From assembly GCA_021205695.1 (NCBI GenBank), contig JAJPXB010000070.1, forward strand, positions 1 to 32,531: 32,531 nucleotides of DNA, given 5' to 3'. A program made the translations under genes and the position numbers. Positions 10,779-30,522 of this stretch are shown in pieces. Below the pieces are notes generated by a model, which saw only the letters and a list, made by a program, of their open reading frames with translations, had not been told where the DNA came from and did not search any database. How positions within the stretch are numbered: the first letter of the stretch is position 1; each line of letters opens with the position of its first letter. The DNA is from Clostridiales bacterium. Lineage in GTDB: Bacteria; Bacillota; Clostridia; Oscillospirales; Oscillospiraceae.

Positions 10779-11844
10779 TGTACTCGTTGTACAGCCGATT
10801 GTATTCCTCGGTGCCTTCCCCGGTGTAGCCAGGAGTACTCACTGTCAGGTTGCTGTAGGTGTAGGTCCCCACTGACTGATAGCTGGGATCGGCAGTCAAG
10901 TCAGAGGGATAGATGTCCACGGTCCGCCCTGAGGGGTTCACATCGCCGTCCAGCAGGTCAGAGAGGGTATTGAACCCCTTCTCACCGGGATGCCCCACCC
11001 ACAGAATGGCATCCACCTCCAGCTCGCCAGTCATCAAATCGCCCAGCTCCATCACTGCGGAGCTGACCAGAATCACGACCACGCTACCGCAGGTCTCCTT
11101 GGCCGCCCGGATGGCACCTTTCTCATTTTCCGATAGTGCCAGATAGTGTGGGGTGCCATCCTCATAGGCGTCGTACTTCTGATCCTGGCCCTCCTGGCCG
11201 GAACGGGAGATAAAGACGATGCCGGTGGTGTCGGAGACCGGCTCCAGACTGTCGTAAATGGAGGAGTCATACTCGTAGATACGGCAGTCGCCACCCAGAA
11301 CAGAACCGGCTTCTCCTGCCGCAGTGGTGCCCTCCGCTTCCTCCAGAGCTTCTGGCTCACCGGCAGCCTCCATCAGATCGGCGGCGGCGGTGTTGATGTT
11401 AAAGGCGGACAACCCCTCCTCCGGGGTGACCGGGTCTACCACCCACTTGGCTGAGCCACCGCTAGACAGCTGACCGTAGATAGGAGAGAGATAGGCGTAG
11501 CCGAAGGGCATGACGCTGCTCCCCTTTTCCAGCGGCAGAACGCCGTTATTCTTGAGCAGCACGCTACCCTCCTCCGCCACCTGCTGGGCCACCTCATAGG
11601 CGGCCTCAGTGGCCTCCTCGGCGCTGGAATACAGCTCGGTGTAGTAATTTGCATCCAGGTCGACGGATTCGCTGGGGGTGTAAAGGTAGGTCTCTCCTGC
11701 CCCCAGGTAGGTGTCCAGAGTGGTGGACAGCGCCACAGCCGCCACATTGAGCACGATACAGACCACCGTGAGGATGGCCAGCAGGGGGGTCAGGATGCGT
11801 CGGAACACTTTGTTGGACATTTTCAAGCGTTTTCCCTTTTCCAT
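10720..11844 (-). pseudogene. GH3-family membrane-anchored protein, 3'-truncated
   Basis: It begins at ATG 11844 (AAAGGAGA upstream). Residues ~17-40 are an N-terminal membrane segment; next come TYLGAGETY and an alpha/beta-sandwich (GH3 C-type domain) with EEGSVLLKNNGVLPL, VMPFGYAY, VFISRSGQEGQD, NEKGAIRAAKE and WVGHPGEKGFNTLSDLLDG, NPSGRTVD. This is the same domain order as the intact paralogue at 27550-30522, where a fibronectin-like domain and the catalytic barrel follow. Here similarity ends at EYNRLYNEY (~10780), where integrase DNA begins in antisense; the last ~20 codons of the ORF (to 10720) are read from that DNA. About two thirds of the gene, including the catalytic Asp, is lost. 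It is the third gene of the regulator-kinase-GH3 cassette. Confidence 0.8.
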
Positions 11845-11892
11845 GTTTCGTTTCTCCTTTCGTTGTTGTCTGGTCAGGAAGGGACTTCCTGT

Positions 11893-11959
11893 ATTGTAAA
11901 AAAAGAGGGACACCCGGTCAACCCAGGTGTCCTAACCTTGCAAATATTGGCGTAACCTT
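11893..11959 (-). promoter_or_regulatory. LytTR-type direct repeats and promoter of the truncated GH3 gene
   Basis: Read on the - strand: 9-bp repeats AAGGTTACG (11959-11951) and AAGGTTAGG (11939-11931) start 20 bp apart. A 9-bp gap separates them from TTGACC (11921-11916), then 17 bp, then TACAAT (11898-11893). LytTR regulators such as AgrA bind 9-bp direct repeats with ~12-bp spacing next to the -35. A short stem with a T run (11932-11897) overlaps the promoter and could also end the kinase transcript. Confidence 0.65.
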
Positions 11960-13277
11960 ACGTCTTTTCCGGCACGGGGAGCAGTACACAGAGATGGAAC
12001 AGCTCATCCGCCGTGACCGTCACCTCTCCGCCGTATTTCTCCGCCACCAGGCGGATGGATTTCAGGCCAAAGCCGTGGTCTGCTCCCTCCGGCTTGCTGG
12101 TCTGGGGCAGTCCGTCCCGAAAGACCAGCTCGCCGGAATAGTTGTTGTCCACCAGGACGACCAGCATACCCCGTTGCTCCCGGATCTGGAGGCTGATGAT
12201 GCGGTCCTCGGGCCGCTCCAGCCGGGAGACCGCCTCGATGGCGTTCTCCAATGCGTTTCCAAACAGGGCGCAGATCTCCCCCACAGGGAGGAAGCAGAGC
12301 CTGCTCCCATCCGCAATGCAAGAGAGGCGGATGCCGTGCTCCTGGCAGTAGAGGCTGTTTCTGGTCAGTATGGTGTCCAGGGTCTCGTTGCCGGTCTTGA
12401 CTGAGGAGTCGTAGATGCTCACCATATGGCGGGTCTCCCGCAACTCCTCCAGATTGACATTGCCCCCCTGCTGCTCCCAGCTCTCCATCCGGTGTCGCAG
12501 ATCGTGGCACTTGATGTTGATAAGCTCGATGTTCTCCCGGCTCTGTTCATACTGCTCCCGCTGGATCTCGTTGATTCGCTGTAACAGTGTGCGTTCCTGC
12601 TCCCACTCCACCTGCTCCAGCACGCTGGTGCGGAGGCACAAGACAAAGCCGCAACAGAAAACGGAAAAGATGCGGGAGATGAGGGTCAGGGCGAAGCTCT
12701 CTCCGGCGTAGGTGTCCCGGACGCTGCTGAGGACGATGACCAGGCCCAAGGTGACGACGGACAACACCGCCAGATTCCGATACACCGTCTTGGAATAGGA
12801 GGCTGGCCATTTCTGCCTGGCAAACAGCCAGTAGCTCAGACAGAAAATGGGAAGATAGACCACTGCCGCAGAGAGTAAATACGGTAACATCCATGCACCG
12901 TCGCCGAGCTGGAACGCCTGAGAATTTTCATTCCAGAAAATCTGGAGAATCTGAGAGCCCATATGCTGGAGCAGGTAACCGCAGACGGCGCAAAAGACCA
13001 GGGGGATGGGTTCCTCCTGAAAACACAGAAAGGGGAGTAGCAGGGAGACGGCGAACATGAGCAGATAATACAGGGTATTGCTGACCAGCCAAAGCTCGCT
13101 GTTCACCGTCAACGCATATAGTGCTCCGCACAGCGCCATCTCTGCCAGAAAGGCCAACAGCAGCCTCCGGCCAAAGTGGGCCTTTCTCCGGTAGGAGGCG
13201 GCAAAGATCAGTTCGCCAACGGTCAGTTCCAATAAAAACAGAAGCTGTGTAATGAGGAAAACGGCTATATTCAGCAT
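11958..13277 (-). CDS. Sensor histidine kinase, GHKL (AgrC/ComD-like), module 1
   Basis: The protein has 439 residues. Five to seven hydrophobic segments fill residues ~1-215 (polytopic sensor region), then a linker helix and the kinase core. The H-box is INIKCHDLRHRM with the likely phosphorylated His258; the N-box is NALENAIEAV with Asn341/Asn345; the G-box is DHGFGLKSIR near residue 400. This architecture is typical of peptide-sensing HPK10 kinases that pair with LytTR regulators. Its ATG 13277 lies one base after the regulator stop, so the two are translated together. The signal is unknown, and no AgrD-like peptide or AgrB protease is visible nearby. It aligns closely with the kinase of module 2, His258 included. 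Confidence 0.88.
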   Translation of the reverse strand: MLNIAVFLITQLLFLLELTVGELIFAASYRRKAHFGRRLLLAFLAEMALCGALYALTVNSELWLVSNTLYYLLMFAVSLLLPFLCFQEEPIPLVFCAVCGYLLQHMGSQILQIFWNENSQAFQLGDGAWMLPYLLSAAVVYLPIFCLSYWLFARQKWPASYSKTVYRNLAVLSVVTLGLVIVLSSVRDTYAGESFALTLISRIFSVFCCGFVLCLRTSVLEQVEWEQERTLLQRINEIQREQYEQSRENIELINIKCHDLRHRMESWEQQGGNVNLEELRETRHMVSIYDSSVKTGNETLDTILTRNSLYCQEHGIRLSCIADGSRLCFLPVGEICALFGNALENAIEAVSRLERPEDRIISLQIREQRGMLVVLVDNNYSGELVFRDGLPQTSKPEGADHGFGLKSIRLVAEKYGGEVTVTADELFHLCVLLPVPEKT

Positions 13278-13278
13278 A

Positions 13279-13989
13279 TCAAGCGCCTCTTTTCGTATAC
13301 CATTCGCACAGCTCCTTCAGGAACTGTTTTCGCCTGGGATGGCTGATCTGCAGCTCGTCCCCGCCCACGTTTACGAGATACCCCCGTACCCATCGTATCT
13401 TCTCCGGGTTGACCAGGTAGCAGTTGTTGCAGCGCAGAAAGTGGCACTGACGCAGTGACTGCTCCGCATCGGACAGAGTCCCCCTTGCCTTGACATGCTC
13501 CTGTCGCTCCAGATGATAGGTCAGAGTGTGTCCCTGCACCTCCACATAGAGCAGCTCCCCGGAGGAGATGCGGGTCAGGCCGGTGGACTGCTGGATCACT
13601 AGCCATTGCGTCCGGCTCATCTCGATGGCCGACAGCGCCCGCTTCATCTTGAAGGAGAAGTCTGCGTAGGTCACCGGCTTGACCATGAAGTCCAGGGCGT
13701 CCACCTGATAGCCCTCCACCGCATACTGGGCCATATTGGTGACAAAGATCAGTTTTGCCTGCCGGTCCTTCGTGCGGAGCCGCCTGGCGGCCTCCATGCC
13801 GCTCATCCCCGGCAGCTCGATGTCCATAAACACCAGGTCATAGCCTGTTCCGGCATTCAAAAGGGGACGAGCGTCCGCAAAACGAGTGATTTTGACAGAC
13901 TCTCCCGTATCCGATTCAAACCGACGCAAATAGCTGCAGAGCGTATCTGCAGCCTTATCCTCGTCCTCTATAATCGCGATATGGAGCAT
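13279..13989 (-). CDS. LytTR response regulator, module 1
   Basis: The protein has 236 residues. The receiver domain (1-~118) has the acidic pocket E8-D9, phospho-acceptor Asp56 in LVFMDIELPGMSG, a Thr/Asn position in VTNMAQYA and Lys104 in MVKP. The LytTR DNA-binding domain (~135-236) includes LLYVEVQGHTLTYHL, RGTLSDAEQSL, FLRCNNCYLVNPEKI and the basic SHPRRKQFLKEL end. ATG 13989 is preceded by AGGGTGAG. It is first in the cassette; the likely target is the direct-repeat promoter ahead of the GH3 gene. Its upstream DNA meets recombinase debris within ~130 bp, in an AT-rich stretch with several TATAAT-like words at 14080-14100. Confidence 0.9.
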   Translation of the reverse strand: MLHIAIIEDEDKAADTLCSYLRRFESDTGESVKITRFADARPLLNAGTGYDLVFMDIELPGMSGMEAARRLRTKDRQAKLIFVTNMAQYAVEGYQVDALDFMVKPVTYADFSFKMKRALSAIEMSRTQWLVIQQSTGLTRISSGELLYVEVQGHTLTYHLERQEHVKARGTLSDAEQSLRQCHFLRCNNCYLVNPEKIRWVRGYLVNVGGDELQISHPRRKQFLKELCEWYTKRGA

Positions 13990-17068: not shown

Positions 17069-17479
17069 CTTTTCTTATTACTGTTCGTCACAATTTGCAG
17101 TATACCACACAGGCGAGAATCCGTTTGGCAACCCTAAAATCAGGCCAAATCCGTCAAGCAGGTATCAGGCCAGAGGGCTCATCCACGCCAAATTATTTTG
17201 TGTTTTGATTCCTTTTCAAATCGTTCCGTCTTGTTTTATTTAGCGCAGGTTCGCCAGAACCTGCGCTGTTTTTGCACCCGCAATACTCCTGCACTCCCCC
17301 CATTTCAAGGAGAATCTGAGCCGTACAATCTCCATCAGCATTCCAACATAATCTTGTATTTTGAGCATGATACACACTTTCACAGGCAGTGCTTTGCTGC
17401 AGGCACATCATAACTTTACACATGTAAAAAGCGTGCTTTTTCGAGGATTCTTAATTCTTCTTAAAAATCACGGATGAAA
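17069..17479. other. Non-coding stretch with one hairpin
   Basis: No convincing gene is seen. It contains a perfect 10-bp stem (AGCGCAGGTT 17242-17251 with AACCTGCGCT 17258-17267) followed by GTTTTT, which would terminate + strand transcription coming from the recombinase scrap. The rest is AT-rich, apparently eroded mobile DNA. Confidence 0.5.
17242..17273 (+). terminator. Intrinsic terminator upstream of the PqqD/VWA operon
   Basis: A perfect 10-bp stem with a 6-nt loop, then GTTTTT. It insulates the operon that begins at ~17480. Confidence 0.7.
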
Positions 17480-17508
17480 TTGACAGACGAAAGAGGATGT
17501 CATAAGAT
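17480..17508 (+). promoter_or_regulatory. Promoter of the PqqD-VWA-radical SAM operon
   Basis: TTGACA 17480-17485 and TAAGAT 17503-17508 have a 17-bp spacer. Further -10-like words (TATACT 17525-17530, TATAAT 17530-17535) follow. The leader to the first start codon is ~150 nt. Confidence 0.7.
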
Positions 17509-17672
17509 AAAAGGGAAACGCGGGTATACTATAATTGTTATGTTACTTTGCACATTTATAGATTGCTCCGAGTGAAATTTGCCGGAACTCTCCTGATTCC
17601 GACTGCTTTTGAATAACGACTTAAAAGAGAAGCAGTCAGAAAGGATCAGATGGTGCGCGTGAGGTGAAAACG

Positions 17673-17960
17673 GTGGAAAAGTCATCCCGTTACAGAAGAA
17701 ACCCTGATTACGTCTTTCGGGAGATTGTCGGGGAAAGCGTGATTGTACCGACCGGAGCTGCAAGCAAACGGTTTGCCGGCATGGGCACCATGAACCGTAC
17801 GGGCGCTTTTCTGTGGGGACTCCTGGAGCAGGAACGTTCCCTGGGAGAACTGAGCGAGTTGTTTGCCGGGGAATATGGCCTGACGGAAGAACAGAGCCTG
17901 CAGGATGTGGCGGAGTTTCTGGAGGCGGCCCAGTCCCACGATGCAGTGCTTCCATGTTAG
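17673..17960 (+). CDS. PqqD-family protein (RiPP recognition element)
   Basis: The protein has 95 residues. The pattern fits PqqD/RRE domains: an N-terminal beta strand pair (DYVFREIVGESVIVPTG), GTMNRTGAFLWGLLEQERSL (the MN-x-T-G/A-x-x-I/L-W signature), then ELSELFAGEYGLTEEQSLQDVAEFLEAA. RRE domains bind the leader of ribosomally made peptides and hand it to a radical SAM or other modifying enzyme. GTG 17673 has GAGGTG 6 bp upstream; GTG 17664 is an alternative without a good RBS. It is first gene of an operon that also holds a radical SAM/SPASM enzyme and a candidate precursor, which strongly supports the RiPP reading. Confidence 0.85.
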   Translation: MEKSSRYRRNPDYVFREIVGESVIVPTGAASKRFAGMGTMNRTGAFLWGLLEQERSLGELSELFAGEYGLTEEQSLQDVAEFLEAAQSHDAVLPC

Positions 17961-18028
17961 TTCGGCTACCCATTGCCTACAGCAATTTTACATAGACTAT
18001 CATTACCAGTTTGAGGAGGAAAGAAACC

Positions 18029-21000
18029 ATGAAAAAGGGAATTCCACGACGGATTCTGACAGCGGTTCTGTCTCTGGCCATGGTCTTGACCCTCTTGCCT
18101 GCCGCGGCGCTGGCGGTCGACGATACCGGAGAGACCAGCACCAGCGGCATCGAGCTGAGCAAGACCGCCACGCTGGAAGACGACGGTACCTATACCATCG
18201 ATTTGGAAGCGTATGCCACCGGTACGACCACAACGACGACCACTACCAGTAGCGTACCGCTGGACATTGTGCTGGTCATCGACCAGTCGGGGTCTATGAC
18301 CGACAGCATCACCACCAGCACAAGCTATACTGCAAGGGACAGCCAAGGCTATACCTATAGTAATTTAAGCAGTAGTTGGGGTCAGTCAGCTCCCACCTAT
18401 TATTATCTGGCCGAAGATGGGAATTATTATCAGGTGAAGCAGGGCAGTCAAAGTACTGGCTCTTTCTTTAGCCGCACAACCTACTATTATCTTTATTACA
18501 CTGATTCCAACGGTAATAATGTCTATCTGAGCGGTACCGGCACTACCAGTACCCAGCCCACGAATGTGACGAGTGACAGCACTACCATTTGGACCGGCAT
18601 CCTGTACACCGTTACGTCCACCACTACCACCAAACTGGCTGCGTTGAAGGATGCTGTCACCAGCTTCGTAAGCACCATTCAGGAGGATGCAGAGGCTAAT
18701 GACGTCGACCACCGCATTGCCATTGTGGGTTTTGCGTCTGACAACAATGACGGTACAAGCGGAACTACTTCGGAGGGTTATAGCATCAGCTCCGGCAGTA
18801 GCTCAAGCTACTGGATCAATACGGGTTTGTTTATTGGCGGCTCTCTGAAAAACTATGGCTCCAGCAGTAATAACACAAACACCCAGCTGACCACCAGCGA
18901 TTATCAGAGCGCTCTGGTCTCTGTTAATAGCAACGGCAGCGTGGCTACCTCTATCACCACGGCCATCGACAACTTCGCCGCTAGTGGTGGTACCCGGACT
19001 TCCTACGGTATGAAAATGGCGGAACAGGTGTTCGCCAACAATTCCGCAAGCTATACAAAGGATGACGGCACGACAGGTACCCGCAAACGCATTGTGGTCG
19101 TGTTCACCGATGGTCAGCCCGGCACAGGTTCCTCTGTTGATACCACTGAGGCGAACTCCTCCATCAGTTCGGCTTATACGCTGAAAAACACCTATGGCGC
19201 AACTGTGTATTCGGTGGGACTGTATACGACAACACAGGACACTGACGTCACGACCTTTATGAACTACATCTCCTCGAACTATCCTAACGCCACGTCGATG
19301 ACCATTGGTGGGACACAGAGCGCGACCAAATATTCTATGACTGCGTCCAATGCAACTGAGCTGAACAACATCTTCCAGATCATCACAGAAGATGTCTCCC
19401 AAGACTCCACCACCGTCACCCTGGACGCCGAATCCGTGATGAAGGACATCATGGGGGATGGCTTCACGCTGCCGAATGATTTTACGGTTGAAAAGAATGT
19501 GACTATCAAGACGGTTGCGGGCAGCGTTAACGCAGACACCGGAAAAATTGAGTGGGGAAGTGAAACGGAGAATGAGGCGAGCGCCTCTGTCAACGGAAAC
19601 ACCGTCTCCGTCACCGGCTTTAACTATGCGGACAAGTACATTTCCAGTGGTCATGCGGGTGAGAAGATTTGTGTCACCATCACCAACGTCCTGCCCACCG
19701 AGAGCGTGACCACCGGTGATCCGGTCTACACCAACGACGCCGACTCCGGCATCTACGCCACCGCGGACGCAGAGGAAGCGACCGCGACCTTCGAGCAGCC
19801 GCAGACCATTATCACTAAGAAGCTTTACGTTCTGGACTACGCTAAGACTGCTACGCTGACCGACCTTGACCAGTCCAGCGTCACCAGTATCGTCAGCAGC
19901 TACCAGAAGGTTTCTGCCAGCGATGAGAAGACTCTGACCCTGACCTACGGCACCTCCGCTCTGGCGACCGCGCTGACCTACACCCCCACCACCATGCAGT
20001 GGAGCGGCTATGACAGCTTCTATGTGTTCGGTCGGACCACCAACAGCGAGGTCATGACCTACGCCACCAACACCGCCGCCCGTGTGGAAAACGGTGACAC
20101 TACCACCGCCAACCTGTGGAGCAAGGTCAGCGTCATCCCCGCCAACAATGTGTACTATGAAGATGATTTCATCACCACCTCTACAGATGGCACAACCAGC
20201 ACCGGGACTGTCGGCATCGTCTACACCGGCGAATGGCAGACGGTTGGCGAGAGCGCAGGCAACACCGAGACCGCCAATAATGACACCTACGGCTGGGAAA
20301 CCACCCTTGCTAACGACATCGGCGATAGCGATGGCGCCTCCCGTGTGTCCAGCACAGACGGCGCAACCGCCAGCTTCACTTTCACCGGCACTGGTGTTGA
20401 CATTTATAGCCGCACCGACCTGACCACTGGCACAGTATATGCGAAGCTGACAGGAAAGACAAGTTCCGGCACTTCTGTTACCAAGCGTCTGATCGTAGAT
20501 GATCTGGCCGAATCCGCCGGAGTGGGAACCTATTACCAAATTCCTACTGTCTCCTTCGAAGTCGAGTACGGCACCTACACCGTGACCTTGACCGTCACCA
20601 ACCAGGCCGATAATGGCGAGCGTTGCACCTATTATCTTGACGGTATTCGTGTCTACAATCCATTGGGTAACAGCAATGTTACCGGTGATGCCTATGACGC
20701 TTACGCAGCCGACAACGAGCTGAACGCCGTGTTCAAAGAAGTCCGAGACATCCTGATTAACGATGTTAAGGGCTACAGTGCAGACTCCACCGTAACCGGC
20801 GCAGTTTTCATCGATGAGATTAACGATGAGACGAGCATCACCACCGGCAGCCTGAGTGACTATGTGGCCTATGGACCTAAGAACGAGGTCTACCTGGATA
20901 CGGATCAGGCCATCGTCTTTAAGGTGGACGCAAGTAGCGATTACACCTACTATCTGGGGCTCAAGTCTGCCGGCGGTTCCGGCACCACTGTTGAATTTAC

Positions 21001-21466
21001 CAAAGGCAGTGGCAAGAGCGAAACGACTATTAGCCATTCCACCGATCTCTACTATGAGGTTACACCGGACAGCAATGGCTATATCATGGTGAAGAACACC
21101 GGCGAGAGCCTGCTCTCCATCACCAAACTGCGCACCACGACCACGGCTGCCTCTGCTTCTGATGGCATTTCCTCCGCCAGCCTGGACGACCTGGTCAGCT
21201 ATGCCAACAGCTTTAGCTTGTTGAGTACGGTTGCTTACACCGTGGACGCCGTCACTGAGGACGAGCTGGATACCAGCATCGATGCCGAGACGGACACTGA
21301 TGCAAGCGCCAAAACTGACGATGTAGTCGAGGATTTGGATGAGGCCGATATAGCCATTGACAACCCTACGGAGGATACCGTGGAGGAGACTGAGGAAAAC
21401 GGTCGGCAGTCCGCCTTCAGCAGCCTGTTCGATACCATCCGGAACTGGTTCAATGGAAGGAGATGA
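18029..21466 (+). CDS. Giant secreted von Willebrand factor A protein
   Basis: The protein has 1145 residues, starting at ATG 18029 (GAGGAGGA upstream). A signal peptide (KKGIPRR, hydrophobic core ~9-25, cleavage near AALA-V at ~29) precedes a poly-Thr run (~66-73) and a VWA domain whose MIDAS begins at DIVLVIDQSGSM (D85, S87, S89) and ends with VVVFTDGQPG. About 110 Ser/Thr/Tyr-rich residues are inserted between the MIDAS loop and the first VWA helix. Then come beta-rich, Thr/Ser/Asp-rich regions, one (~800-880) resembling a sugar-binding jelly roll (SFEVEYGTYTVTLTVTNQAD, YYLDGIRVYNP). The C-terminus is acidic (TEDTVEETEEN) with a final amphipathic basic helix (LFDTIRNWFNGRR). No LPxTG motif or transmembrane anchor is seen. 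It shares the operon with the RiPP genes. An extracellular adhesion or scaffold role is inferred. Confidence 0.82.
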   Translation: MKKGIPRRILTAVLSLAMVLTLLPAAALAVDDTGETSTSGIELSKTATLEDDGTYTIDLEAYATGTTTTTTTTSSVPLDIVLVIDQSGSMTDSITTSTSYTARDSQGYTYSNLSSSWGQSAPTYYYLAEDGNYYQVKQGSQSTGSFFSRTTYYYLYYTDSNGNNVYLSGTGTTSTQPTNVTSDSTTIWTGILYTVTSTTTTKLAALKDAVTSFVSTIQEDAEANDVDHRIAIVGFASDNNDGTSGTTSEGYSISSGSSSSYWINTGLFIGGSLKNYGSSSNNTNTQLTTSDYQSALVSVNSNGSVATSITTAIDNFAASGGTRTSYGMKMAEQVFANNSASYTKDDGTTGTRKRIVVVFTDGQPGTGSSVDTTEANSSISSAYTLKNTYGATVYSVGLYTTTQDTDVTTFMNYISSNYPNATSMTIGGTQSATKYSMTASNATELNNIFQIITEDVSQDSTTVTLDAESVMKDIMGDGFTLPNDFTVEKNVTIKTVAGSVNADTGKIEWGSETENEASASVNGNTVSVTGFNYADKYISSGHAGEKICVTITNVLPTESVTTGDPVYTNDADSGIYATADAEEATATFEQPQTIITKKLYVLDYAKTATLTDLDQSSVTSIVSSYQKVSASDEKTLTLTYGTSALATALTYTPTTMQWSGYDSFYVFGRTTNSEVMTYATNTAARVENGDTTTANLWSKVSVIPANNVYYEDDFITTSTDGTTSTGTVGIVYTGEWQTVGESAGNTETANNDTYGWETTLANDIGDSDGASRVSSTDGATASFTFTGTGVDIYSRTDLTTGTVYAKLTGKTSSGTSVTKRLIVDDLAESAGVGTYYQIPTVSFEVEYGTYTVTLTVTNQADNGERCTYYLDGIRVYNPLGNSNVTGDAYDAYAADNELNAVFKEVRDILINDVKGYSADSTVTGAVFIDEINDETSITTGSLSDYVAYGPKNEVYLDTDQAIVFKVDASSDYTYYLGLKSAGGSGTTVEFTKGSGKSETTISHSTDLYYEVTPDSNGYIMVKNTGESLLSITKLRTTTTAASASDGISSASLDDLVSYANSFSLLSTVAYTVDAVTEDELDTSIDAETDTDASAKTDDVVEDLDEADIAIDNPTEDTVEETEENGRQSAFSSLFDTIRNWFNGRR

Positions 21467-21471
21467 TTGAT

Positions 21472-21744
21472 ATGAAAGCAAATTATGAAAAGCCAATGAT
21501 TCTGTTCGAGTCCTTCGAACTGAACCAATCTATCGCAGAGAGCTGTGGCGTGACCGGCGGTGGAAATAGTCTGGGTAAGCCGACCCATTGGAGCAAGGCC
21601 ACTTGCGGCTGGAGCATCGGCGGAACCATTGTCATCTGGGTCAGCGAAGAAACCGGCTGTAACGATTTCGCTGGCGTGGACGAAGATGTCGATGGCCTGT
21701 GCTACAACAACCCATCCCCTGGTCAGTCGATTTTCAGCTCCTGA
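21472..21744 (+). CDS. Candidate RiPP precursor peptide, four cysteines
   Basis: The product is a 90-residue peptide. ATG 21472 has AAGGAG 9 bp upstream; ATG 21463 overlaps the VWA stop and is less likely. The N-terminal ~24 residues (YEKPMILFESFELNQSIAES) look like a leader of the type seen ahead of Cys-rich peptides in gut Firmicutes. The remainder is rich in Gly/Ser/Thr, with Cys25, Cys45, Cys63 and Cys77 separated by 20, 18 and 14 residues, Trp at 40, 47 and 56, and a DGLCYNNPSPG ... FSS end. It has no membrane segment or enzyme fold. Radical SAM thioether (sactipeptide/ranthipeptide-like) linkage at the Cys or aromatic residues is plausible, as is a partner role for the VWA protein. An immediate terminator behind it is typical for a precursor made in excess over its enzymes. 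Confidence 0.65.
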   Translation: MKANYEKPMILFESFELNQSIAESCGVTGGGNSLGKPTHWSKATCGWSIGGTIVIWVSEETGCNDFAGVDEDVDGLCYNNPSPGQSIFSS

Positions 21745-21784
21745 TACCAAATAAACAACGGTCCCATTCCGGGCAATCACGCTG

Positions 21785-21815
21785 GGGCGGTCGGGCATGG
21801 CCCGGCCGCCCTTTT
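21785..21815 (+). terminator. Internal terminator after the precursor gene
   Basis: A 12-bp GC stem (GGGCGGTCGGGC 21785-21796 with GCCCGGCCGCCC 21800-21811, one G-U pair) and an ATG loop are followed by TTTT. It lies inside the operon and would partly shut off transcription into the maturation genes, keeping precursor and VWA mRNA in excess. Confidence 0.8.
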
Positions 21816-21834
21816 CTTGATAGGACAAAACCAT

Positions 21835-22716
21835 ATGAACTATGAATACCGGATGGCCGGGATCAGGGTTTTGCTTGAGCTGCCCTTTGCGATCTCCATT
21901 CAGCCATCTTCAGAATCGTTTATCAGAAAACCCGCTGATGAAAATCCAAATATGCGCTTTGTCTGCCGTCCTGTCTCAAAATTACCCACTCCGCCGGAGG
22001 GCGGACATGAGGAGAGCAACCGGTGCTATGTGGAGACGGGCACAGAACGACGGGTTTTCTTTCGTCCTTCGCCTTCGGGAGAGCCGTATGCCTGCGTCGC
22101 CTGGCGGGCAGCGGAGCCGAATCTTCTCCGTTGCGACTATTTGCAGGGGCAGGAATTCCGTCTGAACTTTTCCATGCGGCTTTGCGACATGCTGGGGCTG
22201 GAATCCCTGCTGCTCCAGTTTGGCGGACTCTTACTCCACTCCGCATTTATCCGCTGGCAGGGGCAGGGCATCCTGTTTTCCGCCGATTCCGGCGTGGGAA
22301 AGTCCACCCAAGCGGATCTATGGGTGAAATATCAGGGAGCAGAGATCTTAAACGGCGACCGGGCGGGGCTCAGAAAGGTAAACGGTGTGTGGACGGCCTA
22401 CGGCCTGCCCTATGCCGGCTCCTCCCGGGTCTATCGGAATGAATCCGCTCCGGTGGCCGCCGTTTTCATGCTGGAACAGGCGAAGGTCAACGAGGTGCAG
22501 CCGCTCACTCCGGCCCAGGCCCTGCGAAAGCTCTACCCCCAGACCACCGTTCACGGCTGGGATACGGACTATGTGCAGCAGGCACTGCCCCTCATCGAGA
22601 ACCTTGTGACCTCTGTGCCGGTCTATCTGCTTCGCTGCCTGCCGGACGCGGGGGCGACGGAGGCGGCAAAACGTACGCTTTTGGCTCCGCCCCGGAAAGG
22701 AACTGACGAAATATGA
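21835..22716 (+). CDS. HPr kinase-like P-loop protein
   Basis: The protein has 293 residues. A poorly conserved N-terminal ~120 residues lead to LLLHSAFIRWQGQGILFSA and a Walker A SADSGVGKST (149-158) of the HprK/P type, then ILNGDRAGL at the Walker B-like position (Asp175) and GLPYAGSSR. Proteins of this family occur in lasso-peptide and other RiPP clusters, where a related kinase phosphorylates the precursor, and with PqqD proteins. A role in precursor phosphorylation or nucleotide-driven handling is an inference. The start is uncertain: ATG 21835 (weak AGGA) was chosen, with TTG 21817 an alternative. Its last codons overlap the radical SAM start by 4 bp (ATGA). Confidence 0.72.
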   Translation: MNYEYRMAGIRVLLELPFAISIQPSSESFIRKPADENPNMRFVCRPVSKLPTPPEGGHEESNRCYVETGTERRVFFRPSPSGEPYACVAWRAAEPNLLRCDYLQGQEFRLNFSMRLCDMLGLESLLLQFGGLLLHSAFIRWQGQGILFSADSGVGKSTQADLWVKYQGAEILNGDRAGLRKVNGVWTAYGLPYAGSSRVYRNESAPVAAVFMLEQAKVNEVQPLTPAQALRKLYPQTTVHGWDTDYVQQALPLIENLVTSVPVYLLRCLPDAGATEAAKRTLLAPPRKGTDEI

Positions 22717-23852
22717 ACAACATCAAATATGTGGAGGCGCCCATCACGGAATACCTGCACCGGAAAGCTTCCAAACTGCTGTCACCCTTGAGCGGCACCT
22801 TTGAAGTGACGCCCGTGTGCAACATGAGCTGCCGGATGTGCTATGTGCGCATGACAAAAGCGGAGCAGGAGGCCGTCCGCCCCCTGCGCACGGCGGAGGA
22901 ATGGCTGCGCCTGGGCGAAACCGCAAAGGAGCGGGGGATGCTCTATCTGCTGCTCACCGGCGGAGAACCCTTTTCCCGTCCGGACTTCCGCAAAATCATG
23001 GAGGGACTGCATCGGATGGGCCTGCTCATCTCCATCAATTCCAATGCCACGCTTATCACAGAGGATACGGTGGAATGGCTGAAGGAGGTTCCGCCTGTCC
23101 GCATGAATATCACGCTGTATGGAGCCTCTGACGAGACGTATGCGCGCCTGTGCCGCAATCCGAACGGGTTTACGCAGGTCACACGCGCGATTCATCTGCT
23201 GAAGGATGCGGGCATCCCCATCAAGATCAATTGCAGCGTCACCCCATTCAACTGCGACGATCTGGAGGAGATTTTCGCCTTCTGCGAGCGGGAGGCGTTG
23301 ATCGTCCAGGCCACCAGCTATATGTTTCCGCCCCTGCGCCGGGACGCCTCCATGGTGGGAAAGAATGAGCGCTTTTCTCCGGAGGATGCGGCGGCATATT
23401 CCGCCAAAATCGAATACCTGTCCAACGGGCGGGAGCGGTTTTTGCAGCACGTTGCCGACGATAAGATGAGCGGCCTTCCCGTCGACCAGGACAGCGACTG
23501 TCAGGAGATCGAGGGCGAGGGGATCCACTGCCGGGCCGGAAAGTGCAGCTTCTGGGTGACCTGGGATGGGCGGCTGCTGCCCTGCGGGATGCTGCCGGGA
23601 AAAGAAAATGCAGATGTGTTTGACATCGGCTTTGACGAGGCGTGGCGCAGGGCGACAGAGGAGGCGGCGGCCATCCGGCTCCCCGCCAAATGCACCAACT
23701 GCAAAAACAAGGAGATTTGCCGTCCCTGTGCGGCCTCAGTGCTGACCGAGACGGGAACCTACTGCAACGTGCCGGAATACCGCTGTCGGATGGCAGAGTC
23801 CTATCCACAGGCGGCAAAACGTCTGGCGGAGCAGCTGAAAAGGGAGGCGTAG
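22713..23852 (+). CDS. Radical SAM enzyme with SPASM domain (peptide maturase)
   Basis: The protein has 379 residues. The CxxxCxxC cluster motif is C36-NMS-C40-RM-C43, followed by the AdoMet-binding GGEP (LLTGGEPFSRPDF), the SINSNATLI strand and the NITLYGA motif. The SPASM region carries Cys273, Cys278, Cys291 (WDGRLLPCGM), Cys327, Cys330, Cys336, Cys339, Cys351 and Cys358, enough for two auxiliary Fe-S clusters. SPASM enzymes of the PqqE/AlbA/anSME type cut or cross-link peptide side chains and usually need an RRE partner, which is present as the first gene of the operon. The ATGA overlap with the kinase-like gene implies coupled translation. The candidate substrate is the four-Cys peptide encoded at 21472. 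Confidence 0.92.
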   Translation: MNNIKYVEAPITEYLHRKASKLLSPLSGTFEVTPVCNMSCRMCYVRMTKAEQEAVRPLRTAEEWLRLGETAKERGMLYLLLTGGEPFSRPDFRKIMEGLHRMGLLISINSNATLITEDTVEWLKEVPPVRMNITLYGASDETYARLCRNPNGFTQVTRAIHLLKDAGIPIKINCSVTPFNCDDLEEIFAFCEREALIVQATSYMFPPLRRDASMVGKNERFSPEDAAAYSAKIEYLSNGRERFLQHVADDKMSGLPVDQDSDCQEIEGEGIHCRAGKCSFWVTWDGRLLPCGMLPGKENADVFDIGFDEAWRRATEEAAAIRLPAKCTNCKNKEICRPCAASVLTETGTYCNVPEYRCRMAESYPQAAKRLAEQLKREA

Positions 23853-23855
23853 GTC

Positions 23856-24803
23856 ATGGGAAAACGTGAAAAGCGGGAGAAACAGAGCGTCCTCCCGCTG
23901 GTGATTGCAGCTGTTGTCCTTCTGGTGGTCATCGTCGCCCTGGTCCTGGCGCTCACAGGGAGCGACATCGGGGATTCGTCCAAGGAGAGCGACCTGTCCG
24001 CTACGGTAGATACCGAAGCGACGACGGAGGAGGCAACTGAAACGGAGGCCGCCGATGAAGCAGACGACGGGGTGTCGACTCAGGAGAGCGGATCGGAGGA
24101 GACGGCCTCGAGCGAAGAGGGCAGCTCCGGGGAGACAGAGGCTCAGAGTGCCATTTCCGGCGGCAATACAGGCAGTGATGCACAGGCCGACACGCCAGCG
24201 CAGAATTCGGGCAGCGCTGCCAGCGAGACCGATGCAGGCATTTCCTTTCCCTACACTGCCACGGCGGACGAGCTGAAATTGCTGGCAGTCTATGATTACA
24301 GCGGCTATTACATTGAGGACGGCACAGAGACCGCCATCGACAGCGTTGCGGTTCTGGAGATTGAGAATACCTCCAGCCAGGCGATTGAGTACGCCGTTAT
24401 CTCCCTGACCGCAGACGGAGAGACCCTGACCTTTGAGGTGTCCCTGTTGCCTGCTGGGGGGACCGCCCTGGTGATGGAGGCGGACAAAAAATCCTGCAGC
24501 GAGACGGCAACCTTTACCTACGAGGGCAGTGAAATTGCAGCCCTCGACTCCTTTGACCTGTGCGAGGGCCAGGTAAGCGTTTCCACAGACGAATCCGGCG
24601 CCGTCACCGTTGCCAACATCAGCGGGGAGGATATCTCCGAACTGAGACTGTTCTACAAGAACCAATTGGATACCGGAGAATATGTGGGCGGCATCGCCTA
24701 CACGGTGAAGCTGGAAGACCTGGCGGCCGGAGAGAGCCAGACAGTCTATCCTTCCCATTTTGACCCGGAGTACGGCGTGGTTATGATGGTGCGTATTTAC
24801 TGA
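23856..24803 (+). CDS. Single-pass membrane protein with acidic stalk and extracytoplasmic domain
   Basis: The protein has 315 residues. A basic start (GKREKREKQ), one membrane helix (~12-34), a ~95-residue Glu/Ser/Thr/Ala stalk (repeated EE, ETE and SGS steps) and a beta-rich domain from ~130, with ELKLLAVYDYSGYYIEDGTE, a VLEIENTSSQAIEYAVISL Ig-like strand pair and YVGGIAYTVKLEDLAAGESQ. The topology puts the C-terminal domain outside the cell. It starts 3 bp after the radical SAM stop, so it is the last gene of the operon. It is unrecognised; an anchor or receptor for the VWA protein or the processed peptide is a possible role. The 5' half has a different composition (poly-acidic) but ordinary codon use. 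Confidence 0.75.
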   Translation: MGKREKREKQSVLPLVIAAVVLLVVIVALVLALTGSDIGDSSKESDLSATVDTEATTEEATETEAADEADDGVSTQESGSEETASSEEGSSGETEAQSAISGGNTGSDAQADTPAQNSGSAASETDAGISFPYTATADELKLLAVYDYSGYYIEDGTETAIDSVAVLEIENTSSQAIEYAVISLTADGETLTFEVSLLPAGGTALVMEADKKSCSETATFTYEGSEIAALDSFDLCEGQVSVSTDESGAVTVANISGEDISELRLFYKNQLDTGEYVGGIAYTVKLEDLAAGESQTVYPSHFDPEYGVVMMVRIY

Positions 24804-25233
24804 CCGCTATATAAAAGAGCAGAAGAATCTGTCCTTGCTCCCCGATATTTGACGGCATTCATCTTCATTTTGTAGGCCCATGCCCGTTCGCTGGAGAGGA
24901 TTGCATCTCTTTGCAGATCGGAATCGACCATCGCGATTATGGCTTCGTCACCGTTCACCTCCCAGGCAATGACGGGTATAGCTTCCAGCCCGGCCTGTTC
25001 CGCCGCATGGTAGCGCCGGTGGCCGGAAATGATTTCGTAGCCACCGCCCGGTCAAGCTGCCCCAACAGTGGAGAAATCACACCAAACTGCGAAATGCTCT
25101 CCACCGCCCGGGTCATAGCTTCATCATCAGAACGTGCATTCGCAGGCGCAGAGGAAGAGCACTCCATTCGATACACACATTGCAGATACCTGGCAGCCAT
25201 CACAAGGCGGGTCAGGCTGAAATTTGCTGCCAT
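24804..25233 (-). pseudogene. parB: ParB-like partition protein fragment, frameshifted
   Basis: On the - strand, the first part (DEAMTRAVESISQFGVISPL) is in one frame. After about 25070 the reading continues one frame over as GGYEIISGHRRYHAAEQAGL, EAIPVIAWEVNGDEAIIAM, VDSDLQRDAILSSERAWAY, KMKMNAVKYRG. GHRRYHAAE is the ParB/Spo0J box. The protein is cut off at ~24804 where the RiPP operon ends, and the N-terminus is short. ParB-like proteins of this subtype belong to Clostridial conjugative elements, so this is another piece of element debris. A single base loss or gain within the Gly-rich turn explains the shift. Confidence 0.75.
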
Positions 25234-26235: not shown

Positions 26236-27285
26236 TCATGGATTTAGAGTAATTGTTTCACTGACATAGTTGTCGACTGCCCAGTCATCGTTGTCATATA
26301 TATTGAGTTCGAATTCGATTTCATCAACCTCCGTAATTCCGTTGTCTTCTAAGTCTTCACTATACCAGTACATAGAGCTAAATGCACACGTCCCGGCTGC
26401 GACAGTATCTGCATAGTAAGGATCAACCATGTAGCCGTTTACAGAAGCATTATCCACGCTGTACATAACTTTAGAATCTGTTTTATTCACCAAGTACAGA
26501 TTGACAGCATATCCCCAAACATCATCGTATTCACATCCAGTCACAATCACGGTCACATACTCATTGTCAACAAGAACGATATCTGTATCCAGATTCTCTC
26601 GCTCGAAGGTAGTGGCGTTTTCCTCACCATATGGATAAACGTGAACCGTCACATTTGCTACGTCATCCGCTGTCCAATCATCGTTATCATATACGCTGAA
26701 TGTCAGTTCAATATCCGTAAACACTGTAATTCCGTTTTCTTCGAGCGTATCCGAATTATAAAAACTAATCTCTTCATTGGATTTTTTCCCCGCTGTTACT
26801 TCAGATGCAAAGTAGGGGTCACACTTGACTCCATTGATAGAAGCATCATCAACAGAGAACATATAGGTCTTATCAGAAGATTTATTTTCCAAGAGGGCAG
26901 TGAGTGTGTATCCCCATATGTTGTCAGCATCTATCCCGGTGATTGTGATGGCACATTCGTCATTATCAACCACCACTAGTTCTTCAAAACTGGTCTCAGT
27001 CTCTTCGGTATCGCTCTCAATGGATTCGTCCTCTTCGGTCTCAATTCCTTCGGCCTCTGTATCTTGGGCCTCGGTCTCATCATCTATGACATCTTCAATC
27101 AGAGCTTTATCATCATTGTTATCGGTGTTTTCAACAACGGTTTCATCTTCGTCACTATTGCTTTCCTCTTCCACTGTGCTGCTGGATTCCTCCTCAGTAT
27201 TGGAAGTGGTAGTATTACCATCTCCACAAGCAGCAAGGCTCATCAGTAATAAGGACGAAAGAAACAGTGCCATTACTTTTTTCAT
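26236..27285 (-). CDS. Lipoprotein with two copies of a ~115-residue beta domain
   Basis: The protein has 349 residues, starting at ATG 27285 (AAAGGAGA upstream; the in-frame ATG 27303 overlaps the RBS). It has a type II signal peptide, KKVMALFLSSLLLMSLAAC with lipobox LAAC. An ~85-residue acidic Glu/Asp/Thr/Ser stalk follows, then two homologous domains. Domain 1 begins VDNDECAITITGIDADNIWG and domain 2 VDNEYVTVIVTGCEYDDVWG. Both continue with a leucine-containing strand, a VD(D/N)AS(I/V)NG turn, DPY(F/Y)A, an E(D/E)NGIT segment and YDNDDW near the end. It is exported and anchored to the outer face of the membrane. The gene is clearly AT-richer than its neighbours. No partner gene is adjacent. 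The function is unknown; an Ig-like (DUF4352-type) binding role is possible. Confidence 0.82.
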   Translation of the reverse strand: MKKVMALFLSSLLLMSLAACGDGNTTTSNTEEESSSTVEEESNSDEDETVVENTDNNDDKALIEDVIDDETEAQDTEAEGIETEEDESIESDTEETETSFEELVVVDNDECAITITGIDADNIWGYTLTALLENKSSDKTYMFSVDDASINGVKCDPYFASEVTAGKKSNEEISFYNSDTLEENGITVFTDIELTFSVYDNDDWTADDVANVTVHVYPYGEENATTFERENLDTDIVLVDNEYVTVIVTGCEYDDVWGYAVNLYLVNKTDSKVMYSVDNASVNGYMVDPYYADTVAAGTCAFSSMYWYSEDLEDNGITEVDEIEFELNIYDNDDWAVDNYVSETITLNP

Positions 27286-27338
27286 TTTAATTTCTCCTTT
27301 CATCGATTATTCGTCGAGTACAAAGTACTTTCTAGCAC

Positions 27339-27549: not shown

Positions 27550-30522
27550 TTATTCAGGCTTTTTCCACTGGGTCTTTCTCACCAGGACAATCACACCTGC
27601 CAGAGCTGCCACGCCCACGACTACATCCAGGGCGATCAGCCAGTATTCCCACAGAGGCAGCGTCTGTTCCACCGTGGCAGAGGAGGAGATACCGTTCATG
27701 GCAGCACTCCGAGAGACAGCATACAGGATGTGCTTGGAAGCAGTGCGGAGCTCAGTCATGACCGTGGCATTGCTTTCGTAGCCTTCGATCTGCCAGTTAT
27801 CAGTACCAGAGTTCAGCCAGAGGTCAACGCCGCCTTCCAGGCCACCCCGGATAGCCAGAGCGGGGAACGCTTCAGGATAGGACGCCTGGTCAGTGATGAG
27901 GACACCGTCAAAACCCCATTCGTTTCGGAGCACTTCGGTCATCAGGCCATAGTGGTCACCGCTCCAGGTCAGGCCCACCCGGTTCATGCTGGCCATAACG
28001 CCCAGTGCGCCACCATCGGTGATACTGGTTTCAAAGGGCTTGAGATAGATTTCACGGATAGACTGCTCGTTGGCAAAGGTGTTGATGGTCGTCCGGTTGG
28101 TCTCCTGGTCATTCAGGGCAAAGTGCTTGATGAAGCAGATGACACCCTGAGAGGTCGCACCCCGAACTGTAGCGGCGCCCATCTGTCCAGAGAGGAAGCC
28201 GTCTTCGGAGTAATACTCAAAGTTTCGACCGGAGAAGGCGGTGCGGTGAATGTTCATGGAGGGAGCGTACCAGCCTACAAAGTTCAGTTCGCCCTGGGCC
28301 AGGCAGTCCTGTCCAATCAGGGTGCCCATAGTCTCCAGGATCTCCACATTCCAGGTGGAAGCCAGCACTACCTCAGAGCACCAGGCATAGGTGGACTCCA
28401 CCACATTGACGCCGGTAGTACCTGCGTTACCCACATAGGCAGGGCCATCCACGCAAACGGTAGCAGGTGCACTGACGGAGTTGACTGCCTGAGTCTGATA
28501 TCCGCCTACCCGAACCAGGTTGTACATCTCCTCTGCTGTAAGCTGATCTAACAGGTCATCCCACAGAGGATCGTCTGCATCTACGTCACGCATCATAGCC
28601 AGGGTCAGGCCGTTGTCCGCCCCGGTGGTGGGCATTTCCGCATCGGGATCATCTGTGCCCTCAGCGATCGCCAGCGCCGCAATCATCTCATCGGTGGCAA
28701 CTACCTGATAGGTCTGAGGGTAAGTGCCTTCCCAATCGCTGCGAGTCAAGTAGGTAAAGCTTTCATCATAGGTCTGCATATCGGCATCGGTAAACTGGTT
28801 TGTAATGGCATAGCCGGTATCTGTGGAAACAGAATAGGTCTCAGTGGACTCCACTGCGAAGCTCACTGCGTTGGCAGCACTATATTCACCATCCAGGTCA
28901 GTATAGCCCTTAGCAGCCAAAATATTGTTTACTGCGTTATGCGCATCGGTGGCTGCGGTAAAGTAATAATCGCCAGCCTCCAGAATATAGGTGCCCTCAC
29001 CATTATTGGCAGTGGAGTCGTATGCTTTCAGCTCTTCCTCCTCCACGGTGATGGCCAGGGTGGCCGTCTCACCAGGCTGGATCGTGTCGGTCTTGCCAAA
29101 GCCCACCAGCTGTACGGAGGCCTTCTCCACACCGGCTGTCTTGTCGTAGTCGGTATAGGGGGACTGGAGGTAGAGCTGAACCACGTCCTTGCCTGCAACG
29201 TCGCCGGTATTGGTGACCGCCACCTCGAAAGTGAACAGTCCATCCTCATAGGAGGAACTGACCAGCTCTTGAGTGAAGGTAGTGTAGCTCAGGCCATAGC
29301 CAAAGGGGAACTGCACCTCGTCGGCATACACCCAGGTATCGTTGCCCTCAGCTGTAACACCCACGGAGGCGTCTGCATTGCCCTGGCCCATGACCACGTC
29401 CTCATACCGAGTCTCGTAGTACTTGTAACCAACATAGATGCCCTCCTGGTAAACCACATATGTGCTGTACCATTCCGTCTCTGCATTGGTCATGACAGCG
29501 TTGCCGAAGTTCTGAACAGCGGGAGCCCCGGTGGAGTCATAGGCATAAGTGTCTACCAAGTGGCCGGACGGATTGATGTTGCCATTGAGGATCTCGCCCA
29601 GCGCATACAGACCATCCTGACCGGGATTGCCGATCCACAGACAGGCATCCACACCATAGGCCTCTTCATCCAGGAAGGACAATTCCATAGCGTTGCCGGA
29701 GTTGATGATGACGATCACCTTGTCAAACTGGCTGCTGACATAGGAAAGTAAGTCTTCTTCGTTTTTGGTCAGTTCCAGATAGCTCCGGCCAAGATCCTCC
29801 TCAGAGTCCAGCCCCTCGGAGTGGACGGTGCCATAATATCCCTCAATGTCCATCGTTTCCAGATAACTCTCATCGTAGGCCACTGGTACGTCAGAACTCT
29901 CACTTCCGGATCGAGCAAAGACGACGATAGCTGCATCGCCATACTCCGCAAAGCTGTCCGTTTCGGTGTCAGTAAGCAAATCGGTGCTGGCCTCGTGGAT
30001 AACATATCGACCAGTCCCTGCAATATCTGCTACATCCATGCGAATGTCCGCTGCAGCGCCGGTTGTGTAGAAATCCCACATGACCTCATTGACTGTGAAG
30101 CCAGAGGCTTCCAGTGCGGTTTTCAATGTTGGCGCAGTGGTCGTGTCTACTGCACCGGAGCCGCCGCCGCCATACAAAATGTCTGCAGAGGCCACACCAA
30201 ACAGCGTCACGCTTTCGCTGCCAGTCATAGGCAAAGCGTTGTCCTCGTTTTTCAGCAGGACAGTACCCTCGCCAGAGGCCTCAGTAGCAGCGGCAGCATC
30301 CGCTTGAAGGCGCTCATCCTCGCTGCTGAACAAGTACTCGAAGTACTCTGTGTTCTCCGTTGTGTCACCTTCCTTCACCGTGTAGCTGGTTTGTCCCAGG
30401 TAGGTGGTAATGATGGGGGCATATTTCAGTGCGTAGAAATTGCCCACGATCAATGCTATTACCAGGATGGCAATGAGTACCAAGCAAGGGATGGACTTAC
30501 GTTTTGACATGGTTTTCTTCAT
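27550..30522 (-). CDS. Glycoside hydrolase family 3, permuted domain order, membrane-anchored at both ends
   Basis: The protein has 990 residues, starting at ATG 30522 with AAGGAGG upstream. Domains in order: N-terminal membrane helix (~11-33); alpha/beta sandwich (GEGTVLLKNEDNALPM, LFGVASADILYGGGGSG, WIGNPGQDGLYALGEIL, NPSGHLVDTYA); QFPFGYGLSYTTF and a fibronectin-like domain (VTNTGDVAGKDVVQLYL); then the catalytic (alpha/beta)8 barrel with STWNVEILETMG, ICFIKHFALNDQETNR and GFDGVLITDQA, where Asp878 is the expected nucleophile; finally a second membrane helix (~960-983) and a basic tail. Classical GH3 enzymes have the barrel first, so this is the swapped order found in a Firmicute subgroup. 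The active domains should face outward. Beta-glucosidase/xylosidase-type activity is inferred and the substrate unknown. It is the last gene of the second LytTR-kinase-GH3 module. Confidence 0.88.
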   Translation of the reverse strand: MKKTMSKRKSIPCLVLIAILVIALIVGNFYALKYAPIITTYLGQTSYTVKEGDTTENTEYFEYLFSSEDERLQADAAAATEASGEGTVLLKNEDNALPMTGSESVTLFGVASADILYGGGGSGAVDTTTAPTLKTALEASGFTVNEVMWDFYTTGAAADIRMDVADIAGTGRYVIHEASTDLLTDTETDSFAEYGDAAIVVFARSGSESSDVPVAYDESYLETMDIEGYYGTVHSEGLDSEEDLGRSYLELTKNEEDLLSYVSSQFDKVIVIINSGNAMELSFLDEEAYGVDACLWIGNPGQDGLYALGEILNGNINPSGHLVDTYAYDSTGAPAVQNFGNAVMTNAETEWYSTYVVYQEGIYVGYKYYETRYEDVVMGQGNADASVGVTAEGNDTWVYADEVQFPFGYGLSYTTFTQELVSSSYEDGLFTFEVAVTNTGDVAGKDVVQLYLQSPYTDYDKTAGVEKASVQLVGFGKTDTIQPGETATLAITVEEEELKAYDSTANNGEGTYILEAGDYYFTAATDAHNAVNNILAAKGYTDLDGEYSAANAVSFAVESTETYSVSTDTGYAITNQFTDADMQTYDESFTYLTRSDWEGTYPQTYQVVATDEMIAALAIAEGTDDPDAEMPTTGADNGLTLAMMRDVDADDPLWDDLLDQLTAEEMYNLVRVGGYQTQAVNSVSAPATVCVDGPAYVGNAGTTGVNVVESTYAWCSEVVLASTWNVEILETMGTLIGQDCLAQGELNFVGWYAPSMNIHRTAFSGRNFEYYSEDGFLSGQMGAATVRGATSQGVICFIKHFALNDQETNRTTINTFANEQSIREIYLKPFETSITDGGALGVMASMNRVGLTWSGDHYGLMTEVLRNEWGFDGVLITDQASYPEAFPALAIRGGLEGGVDLWLNSGTDNWQIEGYESNATVMTELRTASKHILYAVSRSAAMNGISSSATVEQTLPLWEYWLIALDVVVGVAALAGVIVLVRKTQWKKPE

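Follow-up and report, generated by a model that had tools for sequence, protein, structure and literature searches.

A recurrent RiPP-type cassette, mostly of gut Clostridia, with a near-invariant precursor C-terminal serine and a giant CBM-type protein as probable partner

What is made by six adjoining genes that place the enzymes of a ribosomally synthesized and posttranslationally modified peptide (RiPP) beside one giant protein? To address this question, we analyzed positions 1–32,531 of contig JAJPXB010000070.1 of Clostridiales bacterium GCA_021205695.1; these 32,531 nucleotides are called the window, and the locus under study spans 17480–24803. Six open reading frames (ORFs), all on the plus strand, encode in order a PqqD-type protein, a giant protein with a VWA domain, a small peptide, an HprK-like protein, a radical SAM enzyme, and a membrane protein. 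An earlier note on this DNA had given this number, strand, and order, which the ORFs and their Pfam matches confirmed; the ATGA overlap between the HprK-like and radical SAM genes and the 3-bp gap between the radical SAM and membrane protein genes that it described were also found. We consider it rather likely that this is a RiPP-type cassette whose radical SAM/SPASM enzyme and HprK-type kinase turn the precursor into a miniprotein, phosphorylated at its C-terminus, that serves a giant surface protein.

The HprK-like gene was found four times in the own genome of the window, each copy next to a radical SAM gene and in the order PqqD, giant, peptide, HprK, and radical SAM; because this order is the same in all four, it is more than a chance arrangement. 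Among 200 genomes of the family, the own genome counted, 41 had an HprK match, and none of three sampled congeners (0/3) did. When genome_contigs was searched with an alignment of the kinase, at least 587 kinase-encoding stretches were confirmed, of which the best 80, selected with the P-loop pattern GK[ST]TQAxLW, were fetched and analyzed with the window and the loci of the own genome and the family. By their titles, these 80 loci came mostly from metagenome-assembled genomes of Clostridia, among them Lachnospiraceae and Oscillospiraceae, plus a few Erysipelotrichaceae and one Bacteroidaceae; gut or rumen samples gave many of them their names. Around the 53 HprK ORFs with more than 5 kb on each of their two sides (full-flank ORFs; the window counted and L074, a duplicate of L045, excluded), a radical SAM gene lay within 5 kb of 46, a PqqD gene within 5 kb of 39, and a peptide recognized by its leader within 3 kb on either strand at 42. 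A giant partner was near 32, by a 'VWAd' profile mixing VWA with a module shared by the giants that per-residue coverage later separated, and the membrane protein, called MemF, was near 21. The neighborhood search that the earlier note had proposed thus recovered peptide, kinase, radical SAM enzyme, and PqqD-type RiPP recognition element (RRE) as a recurring set, whereas VWA was not constant and MemF is optional (21/53). What the note had named as speaking against it was also found in part, since some radical SAM and kinase homologs lack VWA and some lack a recognizable peptide. The cassette is a recurrent, RiPP-type one, mostly of gut Clostridia by record titles. No description of it was found in the open-access literature searched, most subscription journals lying outside the search; no paper there matched HprK, RiPP, and radical SAM together, and the RRE papers and a radical SAM review were without kinase terms. 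In two sister cassettes of the own genome, integrase-like proteins (by eye; 372 aa each, 347/372 identical; L042:1435-2553 and L043:15333-16451) lie just outside PqqD, and this near-identical pair suggests mobility or recent duplication.

The precursor family carries the leader YxKPx4ExFxLx3IAxxC and usually four cysteines. With a leader-only model, iterated over the ORFs of the loci, 80 distinct peptides (one spurious) were found in the fetched loci, and 75 of them had a same-strand HprK gene no more than 2.5 kb away. The C-terminal residue was serine in 70 of these 75; serine was second to last in four others, and the remaining one was the spurious ORF, at whose locus the real peptide is Ser-terminal (this ORF, L103_6405, was kept in the 75 but excluded from the kinase-residue, cluster, and module-peptide counts). 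When the peptides were clustered by their last 60 residues, with a 40% identity threshold and the final residue excluded, 44 of 46 representatives ended in serine. In the same loci, serine makes up 7.7% of peptide residues and ends 456 of 4934 other small ORFs; among cassette proteins it ends 1/72 PqqD, 7/106 HprK, 3/94 radical SAM, 9/51 MemF, and 4/53 giant proteins. A protein-database search with an alignment of 40 peptides returned 98 proteins, 96 of them Ser-terminal, with a profile that itself contained the C-terminus. In this alignment, Y5 and P8 of the leader are invariant and K7 and E13 near-invariant, and C25, C45, C63, C77, Y78, and S90 are near-invariant in the core. The peptide had no match over cut-off in the Pfam and NCBIfam scans and no hydrophobic signal segment by hydropathy.

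A second, longer precursor type of 125–153 aa resembles the short type, so far as could be seen, only in the leader and the final serine, which was present in 15 of 15 sequences, 11 of them near a kinase. Long-type loci (L104, L109, L112, L117, L122, L123, L125, L129, L131, L139, and L140) include the peptide ends HPNRS, ETEKS, and YQLS and sometimes have ABC and S26 genes nearby. Other variants were also observed: L052 and L055 have cassettes adjoining chain-length-regulator or exopolysaccharide-like genes (by eye), with peptides of 60–88 aa that are also Ser-terminal, and L162:3929-5725 encodes a radical SAM enzyme, PqqD, and a peptide ending FGSF, beside a giant protein and with no kinase nearby. 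One candidate, L202 (44 aa, ending in F), was rejected as a likely chance leader match, no cassette gene being found in its 13 kb. That the peptide is the substrate, as had been supposed, is borne out as likely by the conserved leader, the discrete RRE, the radical SAM enzyme, and the kinase of predicted fold. The RiPP-like reading of the operon likewise stood as far as a maturation cassette is concerned, and it had overlooked both the C-terminal serine, which is near-invariant, and a hairpin described below.

The enzymes were characterized next to this peptide. An AlphaFold2 model of the HprK-like protein (pLDDT 94.5) matched the structures of PEPCK, over the chain, and of HPr kinase/phosphorylase (HprK/P). 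The His, P-loop Lys, and Asp at H135, K156, and D175 were kept in all 103 homologs of an alignment from which four HprK ORFs, duplicate or of unusual length, had been dropped. HprK homologs of lasso-peptide clusters, which bear a His-Lys-Asp-Asp motif (PMC9266682), are reported to phosphorylate a C-terminal serine (PMC9266682, PMC8498205). In the open-access literature searched, one paper, PMC4289311, named both HPr kinase and radical SAM, and its HPr kinase likewise concerns lasso clusters. By this analogy, the cassette kinase probably acts on the C-terminal serine by phosphorylating it. Its homologs carry the family name PF27840. In L134:6549-8501, a 650-aa ORF is a natural fusion of a radical SAM/SPASM enzyme and an HprK-like kinase. 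The PqqD-type protein, judged from its sequence, would serve as the leader-binding RRE. For the radical SAM protein, the SPASM match (20.0 bits) fell slightly below its cut-off of 21.5, and the PDB sequence matches were SkfB (6efn, the best), a 'Radical SAM' entry (5v1q), and PqqE (6c8v). MemF had no match over cut-off in Pfam and NCBIfam.

The peptide gene and the kinase gene are separated by a gap that holds a GC-rich hairpin. Terminator-like sites as a whole were not above shuffles (6 found vs 6.8 expected), and this hairpin had the longest stem among them. Strong perfect hairpins, defined as at least 9 bp with 6 GC within 100 nt 3' of a gene, followed 35 of the 72 peptide genes that have a downstream kinase gene, and they were found in 26/42 peptide-kinase gaps of 30–400 nt compared with 3/14 gaps shorter than 30 nt. 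After other genes, the counts were 2/92 for radical SAM, 8/71 for PqqD, 5/53 for the giants, 5/106 for HprK, and 8/50 for MemF. Folding of 12 gaps, hand-chosen from near relatives, gave a GC-rich stem in 12/12, with z from −1.7 to −5.5 and two weaker than −2. The hairpin may be a read-through terminator at which partial termination favors the peptide over its enzymes. At the other end of the operon, the one promoter that had been described is only a consensus match at 17480–17508; the 7 promoter-like sites in 17200–25200 were within the shuffle range (4.7 ± 2.2), and the run is interrupted by the 90-nt hairpin gap.

To define the partner of the peptide, the giant proteins were compared. The giant protein of the window is probably secreted, and its VWA head (DxSxS motif, by eye) is followed by a C-terminal module that is shared by the giant partners. 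This module of ~190 residues, for which a carbohydrate-binding-module (CBM35/CBM6)-like β-sandwich is predicted, has four copies in the own genome, one for each cassette. In a Pfam scan of 11 giant partners from relatives, VWA was over cut-off in four, GH20 in three, and neither in four. VWA was rejected as the defining partner because the heads vary in this way, so the description of an operon built around a VWA protein was not upheld; the constant part is the CBM35/CBM6-like module. In the 200 family genomes, 12 of 13 module-bearing genomes were also kinase-positive. A module ORF lay within 7.5 kb of 46 of 53 short-type peptides and 0 of 14 long-type peptides (rows with more than 3 kb upstream; six short rows that lacked both this room and a module were not counted), and the peptide gene directly adjoined the giant gene, within 120 nt, in 39/53. 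Further giants were observed downstream of cassettes at L042:9548-16056, L043:1099-8704, L044:812-7741, and L061:1435-6165, with a C-terminal end like GKTVYVYSDxxxxSYxxL; one of them has GH2 domains.

Export and processing genes were also sought. The earlier statement that no ABC exporter, peptidase, or immunity gene is present held for the operon, whereas ABC exporter genes and S26-type peptidase genes each occurred in the fetched locus of 13/53 full-flank relatives. Local ABC exporters were counted at 5/15 long-type and 9/57 short-type peptides, and the idea that the long type has more of them was dropped (not significant, p 0.15). Unlinked to the operon, the own genome encodes a strong ABC exporter homolog (C54, E 1.5e-141, compared with 9.7e-46 for the runner-up). 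It also encodes a weak S26 homolog (C69, E 1.5e-14, 29% identity) with unrelated-looking neighbors, and these two could act in trans. No immunity gene was recognized among the six operon proteins with Pfam and NCBIfam, and an immunity protein of an unrecognized kind is possible.

Taken together, these results suggest the following scheme. The leader of the 90-residue peptide would be bound by the PqqD/RRE protein, and the Cys-containing core of the peptide would be modified by the radical SAM/SPASM enzyme, with thioether or C–C cross-links as the simplest proposal. The PEPCK/HprK-fold kinase would phosphorylate Ser90, which predicts +80 Da on the last residue. Radical SAM cross-linking with C-terminal serine phosphorylation is the most likely chemistry suggested by the gene content. 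The modified miniprotein would be made together with one giant exported protein and, because the proposed read-through hairpin lies after the peptide gene, in excess over its enzymes; it may leave the cell through an unlinked exporter. Outside the cell, it would probably pair with the giant, cap it, or serve as its ligand. The giant is a protein whose constant feature would be the CBM35/CBM6-like β-sandwich and whose head would be interchangeable, here VWA. The most likely role of the peptide is that of a partner dedicated to the CBM-type giants, and because the cassette usually adjoins a giant with a sugar-binding-type domain, a peptide for a surface protein and not an ordinary antibiotic is suggested. 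A bolder possibility, which we hold only tentatively, is a widespread gut-Clostridia RiPP class of C-terminally phosphorylated, cross-linked miniproteins that are not secreted antibiotics but are devoted to a giant glycan-binding surface protein as prosthetic peptides or ligands recognized by its CBM-like module, with one cassette serving many heads (VWA, GH20, and others).

Several observations weigh against phosphorylation of a miniprotein dedicated to the giant. The kinase scored 13.3 bits against Pfam Hpr_kinase_C (cut-off 33.3), its PDB sequence matches to HprK/P were at E ~0.06, and the Foldseek TM-scores among the kinase matches listed were low (≤0.42 by query length). Position 174, where HprK/P has the leading Asp of its 'DD' pair, is G in 92, N in 6, and D in 3 of the 103 homologs, so the catalytic set differs from those of HprK/P and of the lasso His-Lys-Asp-Asp motif; the invariance of K156 is partly built in because the P-loop pattern chose the 80 loci. 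Four peptides have one residue beyond the serine (SN, SG, SY, and SY), as does the peptide of L162 (SF), which has no kinase nearby. No same-strand leader-model peptide was found within 3 kb of 31/106 HprK ORFs, of which nine have an upstream stretch shorter than 700 nt and seven have a Ser-ending peptide by eye, and no radical SAM gene was found within 2.5 kb of 13/107 HprK ORFs (tblastn with the radical SAM query of the window), several of these at contig ends. The module was not found in 29/41 HprK-positive family genomes; conversely, G161 has module and peptide with no kinase found on its 3.7-kb contig, which stops after MemF. The operon itself has no exporter or leader peptidase found locally. 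As a kinase-free control, the peptide alignment was run against 394 order genomes and 391 class genomes, but it gave no kinase-free genome in which a full cassette accompanied the peptide; because all 12 positive genomes also carry the kinase, a clean control was not obtained. The kinase is likewise present in the genomes of L161, L162, and L164, where it is not local.

The departures in the kinase bear on a different use of its ATP. The P-loop enzyme might drive another C-terminal reaction, for example, activation for attachment to the giant or a sugar, giving a conjugate; the missing first Asp, the weak matches of known HprK models, and the close pairing of giant and peptide fit this idea. 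We regard it as unlikely, since the lasso-cluster HprK-type enzymes with experimental data are reported to phosphorylate a C-terminal serine (PMC9266682, PMC8498205), and the predicted kinase fold fits PEPCK over the chain. The tight spacing of the peptide and giant genes, together with the lack of both a signal segment in the peptide and an exporter gene in the operon, could instead mean that the giant has in this peptide a small, Cys-rich subunit or a chaperone, with the C-terminal serine kept for structure or sorting. This appears improbable given that a dedicated RRE, radical SAM enzyme, and kinase recur with the peptide and that the serine persists in all long-type peptides, none of the 14 scored having a module ORF. 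A bacteriocin or sactibiotic cluster with its exporter and immunity genes elsewhere would account for the SPASM radical SAM enzyme, the Cys-rich core, the strong unlinked ABC homolog, and the ABC and S26 genes of a minority of relatives; it is very unlikely in view of the lack of a recognized immunity gene in the operon, the tight linkage between short-type peptides and a CBM-type giant, and the four parallel cassettes of one genome. Elsewhere in the window, the minus strand encodes a GHKL histidine kinase and a LytTR regulator at 11958-13989, a second GHKL kinase at 30736-32052, and, at 26236-27303, a lipoprotein-like protein whose halves resemble each other by eye and which matched nothing in Pfam at 0.001; GH3 domains lie at 10720-11913 and 27550-30522.

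Table 1. Features of the cassette locus in window coordinates.
Feature	Position	Strand	Details
Promoter-like site TTGACA-17-TAAGAT	17480..17508	+	consensus match only
Discrete PqqD-type RRE, 98 aa, GTG start (candidate)	17664..17960	+	Pfam PqqD 44.8 bits, cut-off 23.4
Giant protein, 1145 aa	18029..21466	+	VWA_2 30 bits (cut-off 27), VWA 25.4 (cut-off 23.8); hydrophobic N-terminal segment
CBM35/CBM6-like module (predicted fold)	20099..20698	+	common to giant partners; motif PANxVYYExxF...FTGTGxD...YLDGIRVYNP
Precursor peptide, 90 aa	21472..21744	+	leader MKANYEKPMILFESFELNQSIAESC, Cys25/45/63/77, C-terminal Ser90; from alignments and C-terminal Ser statistics
GC-rich 13-bp hairpin, T-rich tail	21784..21812	+	in the 90-nt gap that follows the peptide gene
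HprK-like P-loop protein, 293 aa	21835..22716	+	predicted PEPCK/HprK fold; H135, K156, D175
Radical SAM/SPASM enzyme, 379 aa	22713..23852	+	Pfam Radical_SAM 92.8 bits, cut-off 29.5; CX3CX2C motif (by eye)
Membrane-anchored acidic protein MemF	23856..24803	+	one N-terminal transmembrane segment (hydropathy), acidic linker, conserved C-terminal region

Compared with known systems, the locus has the general features of a RiPP cluster, namely, a short precursor with a conserved leader beside modifying enzymes and an RRE over the Pfam cut-off. It does not have those of an ordinary bacteriocin cluster, no exporter or immunity gene being recognized among the six operon proteins. It resembles sactipeptides and ranthipeptides (SkfB, SCIFF, and PapB) in an RRE, a Cys-containing precursor, and a radical SAM maturase, whose SPASM match is slightly below cut-off, but adds a kinase, a C-terminal serine, and a giant CBM-type partner, is without a local exporter, and has only putative thioethers. 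In the SynChlorMet system (ScmC, ScmE, and ScmF; TIGR04249-51), ScmC was the best NCBIfam match of the kinase (37.2 bits vs a cut-off of 125) and ScmE the second NCBIfam match of the radical SAM enzyme (88 bits vs 400), both so far under the cut-offs that the cassette is not placed there. The make-up of that system also differs, the operon here having one radical SAM enzyme and a different peptide and partner. With HprK/P and PEPCK the kinase shares the predicted fold and the aligned His, P-loop Lys, and Asp; it differs from HprK/P in its score below the Hpr_kinase_C cut-off, in the mostly replaced Asp of the DD pair, and in its RiPP-type neighbors.

Lasso clusters carry a PqqD-type B1 protein, and the cassette likewise has a PqqD-type protein. 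Neither an asparagine-synthetase-like cyclase nor a B2 peptidase was found among the six operon proteins with Pfam and NCBIfam, and the cassette further differs from lasso clusters in its radical SAM/SPASM enzyme, its longer four-Cys precursor, and its giant partner. Phosphorylated lasso peptides (paeninodin with PadeK/ThcoK and pseudomycoidin with PsmK), as described in PMC9266682 and PMC8498205, are alike in having an HprK-homologous kinase and a precursor in which a C-terminal serine is the conserved feature, a likeness that supports a mode of action like lasso tailoring and not lasso membership. If this holds, HprK-type C-terminal phosphorylation would extend from lasso peptides to radical SAM peptides, and the close association between such modified peptides and CBM-bearing giants would offer a new route to the role of nonantibiotic gut RiPPs.

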